Source: Microbispora bryophytorum (GTDB lineage: Bacteria > Actinomycetota > Actinomycetes > Streptosporangiales > Streptosporangiaceae). From it: DNA of 64,000 nucleotides. Each line of letters opens with the position of its first letter. Within the stretch, counting starts at the first letter, position 1. The stretch lies in NCBI RefSeq assembly GCF_006874465.1, contig NZ_VIRL01000007.1:1-64000 (forward strand). Reading direction: 5' to 3'. Shown in pieces: positions 4,542 to 64,000 of this stretch. A model generated the notes under the pieces. The model searched no databases and was not told where the DNA came from. It saw nothing but the letters and a program-made list of their open reading frames with translations. A program made the position numbers and the translations under genes.

Positions 4542-5126
4542 TCAGTACTGTCTGCCGTACGCGGCCCGCACGGTCAGCACGTACTCGACCAGGCTGATGA
4601 GCGTGGACTTGACGGCCTCCCGCGAGCGCGCGTCCGTACGGACGACCGGGACGTGCGGAGCCAGCGACAGCGCCTCACGAACCTCCTCCTCCGAGTGGAG
4701 GAACTGCCCCTCCCAGCCGTTCATCGCGACCAGGAAGGGAAGCTGCGCCTCCTCGAAGTAGTCGATGGCCGGGAAGCAGTCGGCGAGCCTGCGGCTGTCG
4801 ACGAGCACGACCGCGCCGATGGCACCGCGGACGAGGTCGTCCCACATGAACCAGAAGCGGTGCTGACCCGGCGTGCCGAACAGGTAGAGGATGAGGTCCT
4901 GGTCGAGCGAGAGCCGGCCGAAGTCCATGGCGACCGTCGTGGTCGTCTTGTTCGGTGTGAGCCCGAGGTCGTCGATGCCCGCACTGGCGTCGGTCATCAC
5001 GGCCTCGGTCGTCAGCGGCAGGATCTCGGAGACGGCACCGACGAAGGTCGTCTTCCCGACGCCGAACCCACCCGCCACGACGATCTTCGTCGAGGTAAGA
5101 CCACGGCTAGAGCCTGCGTAGTCCAC
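4542..5126 (-). CDS. Small GTP-binding protein of conservon 2 (CvnD-like)
   Basis: A 194-residue GTPase of the actinobacterial conservon type, related to Ras/MglA-like small GTPases. The P-loop is GGFGVGKTT (about residues 19-27). The TTTTVAMDFGR stretch supplies switch I, and LYLFGTPGQHRFWFMWDDL is a switch-II region in which the usual DxxG is replaced by FGTPGQ. There is no clear NKxD; the corresponding place reads VAMNGWEG. It is the last gene of its operon. Its start overlaps the DUF742 gene by 20 bases, so the two are probably translated together. It is presumed to cycle nucleotides under control of the roadblock partner. Confidence 0.93.
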   Translation of the reverse strand: MDYAGSSRGLTSTKIVVAGGFGVGKTTFVGAVSEILPLTTEAVMTDASAGIDDLGLTPNKTTTTVAMDFGRLSLDQDLILYLFGTPGQHRFWFMWDDLVRGAIGAVVLVDSRRLADCFPAIDYFEEAQLPFLVAMNGWEGQFLHSEEEVREALSLAPHVPVVRTDARSREAVKSTLISLVEYVLTVRAAYGRQY

Positions 5127-21012: not shown

Positions 21013-21446
21013 GTGTCTTTGTCACCACGATGGGAGCCGAATCCCGATGTCAGACGGGGTCGTAGCGTCGTCCACAACCTTCACGTACATCTTGTCTTCG
21101 TCACCAAATACCAGCGTGACGTGCTCGACAACGCGATGCTCGCCCGCTGTGAAGAGGTCATGCGGGACGTATGTGAGCAGCTCGGCGCATCCCTGCGAGA
21201 GTTCAACGGCGAAGACGATCACGTGCACCTACTCGTGCACTACCCGCCGAAACTGCCGATCTCGACCCTGGTCAACCGGCTCAAGGGCGTATCGGCTCAC
21301 CACTGCACAAGGAGTTCACCGGCCGGATCGACCGGCACATCATGCACAGACACTTGTGGTCGCCGTCGTACTTCGCCGCCTCCTGTGGCGGCGCACCGCT
21401 GGAGATCCTCCGGGAGTACGTCGAGAACCAGAAACGCCCGGACTAG
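21013..21446 (+). pseudogene. tnpA: tnpA (Y1 single-strand transposase of IS200/IS605), frameshifted
   Basis: The frame from GTG 21013 gives NLHVHLVFVTKYQRDVLD and the HUH motif in DDHVHLLVHYPP, then LVNRLKGVSAH near 21300. There it leaves the family pattern. Shifting by one base restores LHKEFTGRIDRHIMHRHLWSPSYFAAS (seen only across the shift) and ends in ENQKRPD-stop at 21446. One missing base in the CACCACTGC stretch explains it. The catalytic tyrosine region is expected in the second part, after the shift. Confidence 0.8.
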
Positions 21447-38292: not shown

Positions 38293-39666
38293 ATGGCGAT
38301 CAGCGTCTTCGACCTGTTCAAGGTGGGGATCGGGCCGTCCAGCTCGCACACGGGCGGCCCGATGGCGGCGGCGCACAGGTTCGCCCGCGGGCTGCACCGG
38401 GACGGGCTGCTGGAGAAGGTCACCCGGGTCGAGGCCGTCCTGTACGGCTCGCTCGGGCTGACCGGCAAGGGCCACGGCAGTGACAAGGCGGTCCTGCTGG
38501 GCCTATCCGGCGACAAGCCCGAACTGGTCGACGTCGACACCGTCGACGAACGGCTGGCGGCGATGCGGGCGAGCGGCACGGTCACCCTGTACGGCGTGCA
38601 GGAGATCCCGTTCGTGGTCGGCGAGCACCTCGTCTTCGAGCGCAGGCTGTCGCTCCCCCACCACCCGAACGGCATGCGGTTCACGGCGTACGCCGGCGAC
38701 GCGGTGCTGCGCGAGAAGGTGTACTACTCGGTCGGCGGCGGCTTCGTGGTGGACGAGAACGCCACCGGCGCCGACCGGATCAAGCCCGACGACACGGCGC
38801 TGCCGTACGCCTTCACGACCGCGCACGAACTGCTCGCGCACTGCGCGGAGACCGGCCTGTCGATCTCCGGGCTGATGATGGAGAACGAGAAGGCCTTCGG
38901 CCGTACGGAGGCGGAGATCCGGGCCCGCCTGCTGCACCTGTGGGCGGTCATGGCCGAGTGCGTACGGCGCGGCACCAGCCGCGAGGGCGTCCTGCCGGGC
39001 GGCCTCAAGGTCCGCCGCCGGGCCCATCAGCTACACCGGCGGCTGCAGGGCGAAACCGACGGGACCGACCCGCTGCGGGCGATGGACTGGGTCACGCTGT
39101 TCGCGCTGGCCGTCAACGAGGAGAACGCCGCGGGCGGCCGGATCGTCACCGCGCCGACCAATGGCGCCGCCGGTATCGTCCCGGCCGTTCTGTCGTACTA
39201 CATGCGTTTCCTCCCGGGTTCCGGCGAGGACGGCGTCGTCCGCTTCCTTCTCACCGCGGGCGCGATCGGCGTCCTGTTCAAGGAGAACGCCTCCATCTCC
39301 GGCGCGGAGGTGGGCTGCCAGGGCGAGGTCGGCTCGGCCTGCTCGATGGCGGCGGCGGGCCTCACCGAGGCGCTCGGCGGGACGCCGGAGCAGGTCGAGA
39401 ACGCCGCCGAGATCGGCATCGAGCACAACCTCGGCCTGACCTGCGACCCGATCGGCGGGCTCGTCCAGATCCCGTGCATCGAGCGCAACGCCGTCGCCTC
39501 GATCAAGGCGATCGCCGCCGCCCGCATCGCGCTGCGCGGCGACGGCCGCCACTTCGTGTCGCTGGACAAGGCGATCAAGACGATGCGCGACACCGGCAGG
39601 GACATGCTCGACAAATACAAGGAGACCTCGCGCGGCGGCCTCGCCGTCAACGTCATCGAGTGCTGA
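38293..39666 (+). CDS. sdaA: L-serine ammonia-lyase (iron-sulfur type)
   Basis: A 457-residue one-chain L-serine dehydratase. The beta-domain begins [24 protein letters not shown]. The alpha-domain has [26 protein letters not shown], and cysteines for the 4Fe-4S cluster in [14 protein letters not shown] and [17 protein letters not shown]. It converts serine to pyruvate and ammonia. Directly after gcvH under the glycine riboswitch, it would drain the serine made from glycine via GlyA. The stop is followed by 13 Cs and then the 53-nt-period repeat array. Confidence 0.95.
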
Positions 39667-39677
39667 CCCCCCCCCCC

Positions 39678-39799
39678 CCGCCGTGATCTTGTAATTTGTC
39701 GCAGGCGATGCCCCTCACCTGCACCGGAGCCCTTCGTGATCATGCAGAAAATCGGCGAGCACCCTCCTGACCTGCCGTGGAACCGTTCGTGATCATGCA
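39678..39799 (+). repeat. 53-nt-period repeat array after sdaA (three cores)
   Basis: A 26-nt anchor (39678-39703; starts CCGCCGTGATCTTGTA) begins 11 bases after the sdaA stop, just behind a run of 13 Cs (39667-39679). The core TGATCWTGYA occurs at 39684, 39737 and 39790, exactly 53 bases apart. Copies two and three are each preceded by TTCG. The sequence between cores is not conserved. The same anchor and period recur at 63309-63567. The remaining bases up to 39865 hold nothing else but the ribosome site of the next gene. Confidence 0.8.
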
Positions 39800-61665: not shown

Positions 61666-63288
61666 ATGTCCCCCGACACCTCCCCGAACGCCCCGAGCCC
61701 CTGGCGGCCGGGTGACGAACCCGACCTCGACCGCACCATCGCCTATCGCGTTCCCCGCACCGCCGCGAACGAGGCGCACACCGTGCGGCTGCCGTCCTGG
61801 ACGGAGCCGGAGGAGATCGGCTCCGCCACCGTATCCGGGCCGGCGGCGCCTCCTGCGGGCCGGGGCCGCCGGGGGCGTGGCTGGATCCTCGCGCTGGTGG
61901 CCGCCGTGCTCGTCGGGGTGGTCGGCGGCGGCGGCGTATGGGCCGCCTCGAAGCTCAGCGGCGGCGGCGCGCAGCCGCAGGACGTGCTGCCCGCGAACGC
62001 GATCGCCTACGTCCGGATCGACCTCGACCCGTCGGCCGGGCAGAAGCTCGCGTTGTTCGGCATCGCCCGCAAGTTCTCGGCCACCCGCGACGCCTTCGGC
62101 GGGGACGACCCGCGCGAGGCCCTGGTCAGCGCGCTGCAGAAGGGCGAGCCGGGTCTCTCCGAGGCCGACTACGCCAGGGACGTCGAACCCTGGCTCGGTG
62201 ACCGCGTCGGCCTCGCCGTGCTCCCCGCCGACGGCGGCGGCGACCCCGTCGGAGCACTCGCCGTACAGGTGAAGGACGAGGCGGCGGCCCGGACGGGCAT
62301 CGCCAAGATGGGCCTCGACGGCGGCAAGGGCGGCCTGGCGTTCCGCGAGGGGTACGCGATCATCGCCATGAGCCAGAAGCTGGCCGACGAGTACGTCAAG
62401 GCGGCGCCGCTGTCCGGCGAGCCGCGCTTCGCCGCCGACCTCGACGCGCTGGGCGAGCCGGGCGTGCTGTCGTTCTGGATGGACGCGGAGAAGGTCGCCG
62501 ACGCCGGCTGGAGCGAGGTCGCGGTGACGCCCGTGCTGCGGCAGATCAGGGGCATGCGGTTCGCCGGCGCCCTCCGGTTCTCCGGCGACTACGCCGAGCT
62601 GGCCGGGGTCACCCGCGGCGGCACGGCCGCACCGGGACGGCCCGAGCCGGTGAAGATCGGCGAGCTGCCCGCCTCCACGGTCGCGGCTGCCTCGATCTCC
62701 GGCCTGGGCGACCTGCTGCGCGAGCAGTGGCCGTCCGTCGAGCAGAGTGCGAGCGGCTCGGGCGGCGAGATGGTCCGGCAGGCCCTCGCCGAGGCGCGGA
62801 CGCAGTACGGCCTGTCCCTGCCGGACGACCTCGCGACGCTGCTGGGCCGCTCCCTCACGCTCGCTTTGGACGAGCAGGACCTCGACGGCGCGCAGCCCCG
62901 GGTGGGCGCCGTGCTCACGACGGACACCGCCAAGGCGCGTGACGTGGTGGACCGGCTCAAGGGCCACCTGAACGGCATGGAGAGGTCCGCCGACATCGCC
63001 ACCGCCGAGGGCGACGGGCGGTTCGTGATCGCGAGCACCCAGGAGTACGCCGACGCGCTGAACGGCGGCGGCACGCTCGGCGAGAGCGAGACGTTCCGCC
63101 TGGCCGTCCCGGACGCCGCGAACGCGACCTACGCCGTGTACGCCGACCTCGACCGGCTGGAGAAGCTGTATCTGGACGGCCTGAACGAGCAGGGGCGCGC
63201 CGACGCCGAGAAGCTGCGGGCGGTCGGCCTGAGCGGCACCCACGGCGAGGACGGCTCGACCTTCGCCCTCCGCCTGGTCTTCAACTAA
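61666..63288 (+). CDS. DUF3352 domain membrane protein
   Basis: A 540-residue protein. A cytoplasmic N-terminus of about 75 residues (DRTIAYRVPRTAANEAHTVRLPSW), one membrane helix (GWILALVAAVLVGVVGGGGVWAAS), then a DUF3352 extracytoplasmic domain (LPANAIAYVRIDLDPSAGQKLALFGIARKF...) to the end, with repeated alpha-beta units. The gene lies between the murI group and cysM. ATG 61666 chosen over a GTG nine bases earlier. Function unknown. The 53-nt-period repeat begins 20 bases after its stop. Confidence 0.85.
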   Translation: MSPDTSPNAPSPWRPGDEPDLDRTIAYRVPRTAANEAHTVRLPSWTEPEEIGSATVSGPAAPPAGRGRRGRGWILALVAAVLVGVVGGGGVWAASKLSGGGAQPQDVLPANAIAYVRIDLDPSAGQKLALFGIARKFSATRDAFGGDDPREALVSALQKGEPGLSEADYARDVEPWLGDRVGLAVLPADGGGDPVGALAVQVKDEAAARTGIAKMGLDGGKGGLAFREGYAIIAMSQKLADEYVKAAPLSGEPRFAADLDALGEPGVLSFWMDAEKVADAGWSEVAVTPVLRQIRGMRFAGALRFSGDYAELAGVTRGGTAAPGRPEPVKIGELPASTVAAASISGLGDLLREQWPSVEQSASGSGGEMVRQALAEARTQYGLSLPDDLATLLGRSLTLALDEQDLDGAQPRVGAVLTTDTAKARDVVDRLKGHLNGMERSADIATAEGDGRFVIASTQEYADALNGGGTLGESETFRLAVPDAANATYAVYADLDRLEKLYLDGLNEQGRADAEKLRAVGLSGTHGEDGSTFALRLVFN

Positions 63289-63308
63289 CCCCCACCTCAC
63301 CCTCTCCC

Positions 63309-63567
63309 CCGCCGTGATCTTGTAGTTTGTCGCACCAACGGCGGGTGAGCTACGGGTATCAGCATCTTGATCTTGCAGCGATCGATGCCAGAGCCGCCTT
63401 ACCAGGCAAAACACGATTCGTGATCTTGCACTTCTCGTCGAAATGCAAGATCACGAATCGTGTTTGCGCTGATCCCGCAACCGCAGGCCAATCCTGCGCA
63501 AGATCACGAAAGGTCCCTTCGCATGTCACAGGCGTGCGTGCGACTAACTACAAGATCACGTCGGCGG
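63309..63567. repeat. 259-bp palindromic 53-nt-period repeat between convergent genes
   Basis: Two opposed arms. The plus arm has the core TGATCTTGYA at 63315, 63368 and 63421 (period 53). The minus arm, read leftward, has it from 63558, 63506 and 63453 (periods 52 and 53). The arms meet in a perfect 22-bp hairpin (63409-63430 with 63444-63465, 13-base loop). Each arm starts with the anchor seen at 39678: 25 of 26 bases identical for the plus arm, and a 3-base insertion plus one further change for the minus arm. The anchors start 20 and 9 bases after the stops of the DUF3352 gene and cysM. Confidence 0.85.
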
Positions 63568-63576
63568 GTGGGGCGG

Positions 63577-64000
<424 letters not shown>

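Follow-up and report, generated by a model that had tools for sequence, protein, structure and literature searches.

Phased arrays of a 53-base unit at gene ends in Microbispora, Planotetraspora and related actinobacteria

Arrays in which a ten-base core, TGATCWTGYA, recurs about every 53 bases between changing filler are found in some soil actinobacteria (Microbispora, Planotetraspora and relatives), their number ranging from a few to hundreds per genome. These arrays are real, constrained at the DNA level, phased, symmetric about a centre and located mainly at gene ends. Very probably they are bound by protein as DNA and are neither RNA elements nor decayed tandem repeats; of the three options that a sequence-only reading of this DNA had offered, the phased protein-binding array fits best. 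Their job is perhaps that of a terminator or insulator at the gene end, a reading that we prefer with reserve.

Results

Arrays in the window

The window is the whole stretch of 64,000 nucleotides analysed on contig C115 of the 7.85-Mb Microbispora bryophytorum genome (G000). Exact cores are found on the plus strand at 39684, 39737 and 39790, so that the 53-base recurrence claimed beforehand is exact here, and at a second site at 63315, 63368 and 63421 (plus strand) and at 63444 and 63549 (minus strand), together with a one-mismatch core at 63497 (minus strand). If up to one mismatch is allowed, the window holds 14 core matches compared with 2.76 expected, a count reached by none of 100 shuffles. 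A 21-base anchor pattern occurs three times (39683 plus, 63314 plus and 63539 minus; 0.00 expected), in agreement with the earlier statement that one anchor opens all three arms.

The first site is a lone arm on the plus strand. A C-rich tract ending in GCCG (39667..39683) leads into it directly 3' of the stop codon (39664-39666) of a serine dehydratase gene, identified by its Pfam SDH_alpha/SDH_beta match. The outer unit (39684..39736) consists of the core TGATCTTGTA, a TTTGTCGCA block, an ACCTG block and a CTTCG end; the second unit (39737..39789) has the core TGATCATGCA, a GACCTG block and a GTTCG end. The third core (39790..39799) closes the arm, which has no facing arm in the window.

The second site (63309-63567), likewise exact, had been read as a further instance of the same rule; it is corrected here to two arms that face each other across a 13-base gap. 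On the plus strand, a C-rich tract with GCCG (63289..63314) lies 3' of the stop codon (63286-63288) of a DUF3352 gene and is followed by the left arm (63315..63430), which carries the three plus-strand cores. The 13-base centre (63431..63443) separates the innermost cores, and the right, facing arm (63444..63558, minus strand) has its cores at 63444-63453, 63497-63506 (the one with a mismatch) and 63549-63558. The outer C-rich flank of the right arm (63559..63576, minus strand; G-rich on the plus strand) extends to the stop codon (63579-63577) of a PALP-family gene, which we take to be cysteine-synthase-like. By eye, the middle of the element forms a palindrome with two 22-base halves (63409..63465), so that a hairpin is possible in RNA of either strand; the centre (L055) folds at -44.7 kcal/mol (z -11.1).

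Unit architecture and spacing

The pair pattern TGATCWTGYA-N40..46-TGATCWTGYA, i.e. the rule read from the window, matched the source genome 61 times (30 + 31) and its reversed control not once; the anchor search revealed three further places. Facing cores on both strands, usually three per arm, were present in 22 of the 25 stretches examined in this genome. The other stretches (L051, L053 and L054, the last being the window arm at 39684) are one-armed only, and in L037 and L050 the arms are widely parted (2.5 kb and 1.1 kb, respectively). The usual element consists of two facing arms with two to six cores each.

The unit consensus was derived from units of exactly 53 bases: 36 first and 32 middle units in G000, and 177 and 337 in the 116-locus set (stretches from a scan of the named genomes, in which at least 116 such stretches exist). 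In this consensus the core, TGATC(A/T)TG(C/T)A, is followed by a second block and then by a stretch with little conservation; (T)GACCTG(C) stands at about +32, and the unit ends in (TT)CG. The second block is GTTTGTCGCA in the outer Microbispora units and CAGGTTCG in the 116-locus set. This architecture is common to Microbispora and Planotetraspora; 3' of the innermost core, no conserved sequence was found in the 116-locus set. The filler had been described as unrelated apart from a TTCG before the later cores: the CG or TTCG ending was recovered (the core at 63368 is preceded by ATCT), but GACCTG at about +32 and the weaker blocks contradict the remainder of that description.

The next core on the same strand within 160 bp lay at 52-54 bases in 277 of 287 cases at the Microbispora loci (G000, M. 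rosea G187 and Microbispora sp. H11081 G178) and in 565 of 602 cases in the 116-locus set. The strict 53-base spacing of the earlier reading thus holds for most cores, but 52 and 54 occur too. Other core distances were 62-64 (five cases) and 42 (two cases); at the rel/DUF349 locus of G051 (L364), two minus-strand cores are 41 bases apart, about one helical turn below 53. As a unit of 53 bp corresponds to five helical turns, successive cores would lie on the same face of the DNA. The inner gap between facing arms measured 2 bases in 30 and 13 bases in 8 of 56 Microbispora elements and fits a period of about 10.6 bp (R 0.89, n 56, a value inflated by orthologues and by the 30 gaps of 2); a phasing of 10.5-10.6 bp fails in the 116-locus set (R 0.12-0.14, n 75), and the AT wave of the filler does not separate 10.6 from 9.6 bp.

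Position at gene ends

Arms have a gene 3' end as their outer neighbour in 36 of 46 cases in G000, as the sequence-only reading had anticipated, in 47 of 63 in G178 and in 137 of 204 in the 116-locus set; the share of 3' ends in the local gene gaps is 0.48, 0.62 and 0.46, respectively. The other arms adjoin gene starts (10/46, 16/63 and 67/204). Neighbours were assigned with a simple home-made codon-usage gene caller, arms without a called neighbour being left out. The median distance from the outer end of the arm is 10-19 nt to a stop codon and 113-124 nt to a start codon, and the TGA of a core itself doubles as the stop codon in 11 (G000), 15 (G178) and 28 (116-locus set) arms.

The 20 nt outside the arms contain C at 0.53 and G at 0.19 at gene ends (174 flanks) and C at 0.47 and G at 0.21 at gene starts (70 flanks), compared with C 0.36 and G 0.33 behind 793 other stops. 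Since the C-rich tract is present whatever the direction of the neighbouring gene, it appears to be part of the element. Some facing arms bracket whole genes, among them, in three loci (L090 of P. mira, L134 of P. kaengkrachanensis, and L164), a GTPase gene that is presumably typA-like; arms also occur in tandem or divergent gene gaps.

Distribution

The pair pattern is present in 14 of 200 family genomes (the source genome and 13 of the 199 others), which belong to 6 of 68 genera, and reversed controls gave 0. The spacing is thus not confined to the window, nor are the copies indifferent to gene 3' ends, the two outcomes that the sequence-only reading had named as speaking against it. The pair counts are 740 in G077 and 486 in G022 (both Planotetraspora), 444 in G144 (P. 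kaengkrachanensis), 389 in G125, 371 in G059 (Planotetraspora sp. A-T 1434), 202 in G178, 161 in G084, 98 in G104 (P. phitsanulokensis), 61 in G000, 34 in G034, 30 in G187, 3 in G194, 2 in G051 and 1 in G050; the single G050 pair may be a chance match. Ten Microbispora genomes range from 0 to 202 pairs, six of them having none. Among the 80 loci listed from the 116-locus set, Planotetraspora, Sphaerimonospora and Microbispora are represented. A viral or plasmid home was rejected: viral contigs gave no match to two array patterns, and plasmids gave none to window positions 63280-63585.

Orthologous loci in relatives

At the convergent DUF3352/PALP junction (63286-63579), elements are found in G000, G178 and G059, and no element in ten other genomes; G022 has one arm, whose TGA is the stop of the gene, plus a separate hairpin. 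Eight of the ten element-free genomes have a fold here that lies at least about 5 sd below its shuffles; G119 reaches 2.8 and G065 2.0 sd (scores are for the best window of many and against mononucleotide shuffles).

The element between rel and the DUF349 gene, a second convergent pair, is present in G000, G178, G187, G059, G034, G084, G022, G077, G104 and G144 (one arm within the stretch read in the last), and the G125 contig ends inside it; G194 holds a decayed and G051 a reduced form, and in G168 one pair of cores makes up the stem of a hairpin. The element is thus at the same place in four genera and reduced in a fifth. G097, G139, G155, G119 and G065 are without it: strong hairpins were seen in two of these five (G155 and G139), and no fold clearly beyond shuffles in G097, G119 and G065 (by eye, G097 has a 10-bp stem). 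Strong folds exist also in G168 and G051, where cores lie inside the stems.

Behind the serine dehydratase gene, G178, G187 and G059 have the lone arm, G194 has it in a reduced form, and the same five genomes (G097, G139, G155, G119 and G065) lack it; inspection by eye revealed no consistent hairpin at this locus in the arm-free relatives. Element-free relatives carry a different sequence at the site, with no clean empty site discernible by eye. The loci suit vertical inheritance with losses and, in part, an exchange with hairpin terminators.

These data bear on a reading in which the arrays are chromosome-organising sites (anchors for a nucleoid protein, topoisomerase or condensin) that occupy the free space at gene ends and have no role in termination. 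The phasing, the dyad symmetry and the copy number of tens to hundreds would be well suited to such a role, as would arms that bracket genes or sit in tandem or divergent gaps, and BIMEs are described in PMC2817692 as binding gyrase and IHF. Such a role is nevertheless rather unlikely: The arms hug stop codons tightly and are oriented along the gene, some of the relatives carry hairpins at these sites, and the spread of 0 to 202 pairs among ten Microbispora genomes suits a dispensable function.

Selection on the cores

Where intact, the cores evolve far slower than the filler. Comparison of 81 pairs of orthologous 53-bp units between G000, G178 and G187 (orthology by filler similarity; 9 of 90 unit pairs with a filler identity under 0.55 left out) gave the lowest number of substitutions per site for the core (2.7%), followed by GACCTG (7%), the second block and the unit end (13-14%) and the filler (17-19%). 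Orthologous spacing was the same in 108 of 126 pairs and off by one in the rest (only the range of 51-55 being visible). Selection on a constant spacing with changing filler, as proposed from the window, is borne out by the slow cores and by a spacing kept at 52-54. Under strict flank-based orthology in the Microbispora triple (6 elements, 27 cores; unique core changes counted by hand, counts small), unique core versus filler changes were 2 versus 165 in G178, 0 versus 27 in G000 and 3 versus 22 in G187. Gapped cores were set aside in the strict test (15 in Planotetraspora, and one each in Microbispora and G194), and two core deviations of L036 common to G000 and G187 were left unpolarised.

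In the nearly array-free G194, two elements show 10 deviations in 8 cores versus 48 in 235 filler sites. Over eight elements, P. phitsanulokensis has 24 core deviations versus 7 in P. kaengkrachanensis (p 0.003), or 10 versus 1 if the badly aligned rel element is omitted. The facing cores of G059 are intact (0.15 mismatches per core; 0.08-0.27 in four other Planotetraspora species). Arms without a remaining facing arm were 3 of 3 in P. phitsanulokensis, 1 of 1 in M. rosea and 5 of 20 in G059. By these small counts, the constraint on the cores seems relaxed in some lineages, as would be expected if a reader protein had been lost there.

Copy relations and mobility

Among the matches listed (at most eight per genome, filler of equal length only), unit pairs of at least 0.84 identity are, with one exception, neighbours in one arm or facing-arm partners, i.e. 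members of the same element; otherwise, units of different loci reach at most 0.83 there, and the filler identity between units is mostly 0.3-0.7. Since close copies are almost restricted to single elements, the arrays seem to grow locally. The exceptional pair results from a segmental duplication in G178: the copy spans about 350 bp next to a tRNA-Lys gene (L149, 5026-5375; tRNA-Lys at 4905-4981), comprises an array and part of the adjoining gene region and is 82-83% identical to the DUF3352/PALP element. In G059, the arrays at C1:270760, C1:352078 and C1:450350 have partly common filler, possibly by copying between loci.

The mobile 3'-end cassette that had been considered for the window found no support in this comparison, as the listed units of different loci are not close copies (with one clear exception) and the rel/DUF349 element keeps its place in four genera. 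Arms as the ends of one cargo-bearing transposon were rejected: The enclosed genes differ and look ordinary, and the nuclease locus described below is the same across the genera compared.

A candidate reader protein

One arm pair of G000 encloses a gene for a protein of 323 aa (C137:244597-245565), which matches AbiEi models over about residues 3-180 and, in addition, REase_MTES_1575. Orthologues (56-90% identity) lie between facing arms in G178, G077, G022, G125 and G144, at one and the same P450/GDP-mannose dehydratase locus; in P. phitsanulokensis (G104), the P450 gene adjoins the dehydratase gene at this locus, and two decayed cores 54 apart are found. Among 26 genomes searched, full-length orthologues of at least 56% identity are restricted to six array-rich genomes (G000 included); distant homologues exist in 121 of 200 family genomes (E 0.001). 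Between G000 and G178, the gene shows a dN of 0.062 and a dS of 0.395. Arrays are commoner in genomes with than without a copy of the gene (6 versus 12 genomes, one-sided p 0.0013, kinship uncorrected, G050 and G051 left out). This AbiEi/PD-(D/E)XK protein is a tentative candidate for the array reader, against which some genomes argue: G059, with its 371 pairs, possesses only a homologue of 36% identity that is not flanked by arms, G084 combines 161 pairs with a truncated gene, and in G025 a 51% homologue occupies this locus in a genome free of arrays.

The same protein could be the agent of a selfish, REP/RAYT-like system, in which it recognises and cuts the cores and drives their local copying, the arrays being a by-product and not terminators of the host. 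The position of its gene between inward arms in G000, G178, G077, G022, G125 and G144 would agree with this, as would the higher array counts of genomes with a gene copy (phylogenetically non-independent), the larger core change in lineages without the protein (G187, G194 and P. phitsanulokensis) and the duplication of units in tandem and between the facing arms of one element. G059 (array-rich and with intact cores), G084 and G025 are at odds with it; other genes are bracketed too, and the strict branch counts are small. We regard such a selfish system as unlikely.

Palindromic centre and RNA pairing

At the Microbispora loci (G000 and G178 orthologues counted apart), the innermost facing cores resemble each other beyond what permuted partners show (z 5.4 in 44 elements; 0 of 2000 permutations), and no likeness beyond chance was detected for the second (44 elements, z -0.4) and outermost (42 elements, z 0.8) facing cores. 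In consequence, a hairpin of the whole element fails. Of 48 inner regions from Microbispora loci, a few of which are not true centres, 39 fold with z below -3; the lone arm has neither a facing core nor a central hairpin. Covariation of paired positions within the units was not convincing, either in the Microbispora set (174 units) or in the other set (511 units): single pairs of positions peaked at z 4.3-4.4 (3.3 expected) and three-pair stems at z 3.9 and 3.5, and the peaks differ in place between the two sets, so that no shared stem is seen. Rfam gave no family at gathering score for the lone arm and only two sub-threshold matches for the two-armed element. The palindrome at 63401-63473 matched an unrelated microRNA family on both strands with 35 bits against a cut-off of 100, probably a chance match of a palindrome.

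An RNA element, be it a 3'-UTR structure or a small RNA processed in 53-nt pieces as had been suggested from the window, is accordingly improbable. Its location behind stop codons and the well-folding centres would fit; however, the units lack convincing covariation, the second and outer facing cores lack matched changes, RNA pairing needs no exact equal spacing, and Rfam offered nothing at gathering score for the lone arm, so that an RNA processing unit was rejected. Tandem and inverted copies do occur within single elements, but a functionless, decayed ordinary tandem repeat is hardly credible, as the filler differs while cores and spacing stay, with core change several-fold below that of filler in the array-rich lineages.

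Discussion

Proposed function

According to the reading that we prefer, i.e. protein-bound arrays at gene ends, a protein or oligomer would contact the core and the conserved blocks of each unit and line up along the arm, the two arms facing each other across the palindromic centre, usually within about 20 bases of a stop codon. Outgoing transcription would meet the C-rich stretch, then the loaded array and then the central hairpin. We infer both the binding of protein and that this binding blocks or terminates RNA polymerase; the array would thereby end transcription and insulate the neighbouring genes from each other, lone arms being one-way versions. More speculatively, and with considerable doubt, a domesticated AbiEi-type PD-(D/E)XK nuclease might be an independently evolved counterpart of REP-RAYT, its gene framed by its own sites, with arrays that replace hairpin terminators and decay where the protein is lost.

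If the preferred reading is correct, bacteria would mark gene ends by means of DNA phase and a reader protein dedicated to it, a system gained or lost between sister species. Gene-end insulation and the exchange with hairpin terminators would then be testable in natural comparisons, and the phased arrays would provide a direct bait for the reader protein.

Comparison with known systems

Judging by the literature search, in which no description of a 53-base phased array family was found, the arrays look like an undescribed family. Among the closest parallels are REPs and BIMEs, which PMC2817692 and PMC3733652 describe as extragenic and inverted, with many copies, situated 3' of genes and between convergent genes and linked to termination and DNA-binding proteins; there, two REPs in inverted orientation flank a rayt gene, and REP numbers correlate with the presence of this gene. 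The arrays resemble this system in their many extragenic copies, gene-end location, inverted arrangement and bracketed gene. In these papers, however, REPs are palindromes of 20-40 bp tagged GTAG or CGTC, whereas the array unit is a directional 53-bp sequence repeated head to tail in fixed phase in two facing arms; it is not palindromic, and beyond chance only the centre of the element is. Array units at different loci, unlike REPs, are not close copies among the matches listed, apart from one segmental duplication, and the bracketed gene encodes an AbiEi/PD-(D/E)XK protein instead of a RAYT. Membership in the RAYT/REP system was rejected, as Y1_Tnp (PF01797) had 0 matches in the array-bearing G178, G022, G104, G125, G144 and G059 (and likewise in the array-free G168); it occurs in 11 of the 18 genomes, some of them array-free. 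The window itself contains a Y1_Tnp (IS200-like) gene at 21070-21431 in two frames (G000:C115:21070-21321 and 21303-21431), which is apparently broken.

Intrinsic bidirectional terminators have the same place between convergent genes and a palindromic centre, and a hairpin stands there instead in part of the relatives; the arrays add phased arms with constrained, non-palindromic units, and lone arms are free of a hairpin. The MIRUs of mycobacteria, also actinobacterial, are intergenic too, similar in length and in contact with stop codons, but they are near-identical direct repeats, whereas the filler of the arrays mostly differs between units (identity 0.3-0.7) and the arms face each other. 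From CRISPR, by the repeat/spacer criterion, the arrays differ in their filler, which contains conserved blocks and is passed on together with the locus. AbiEi antitoxins of the AbiE system bind repeats at their own promoter; the bracketed protein matches AbiEi models in its first 180 residues and differs from these antitoxins in its fusion to a nuclease-type domain.
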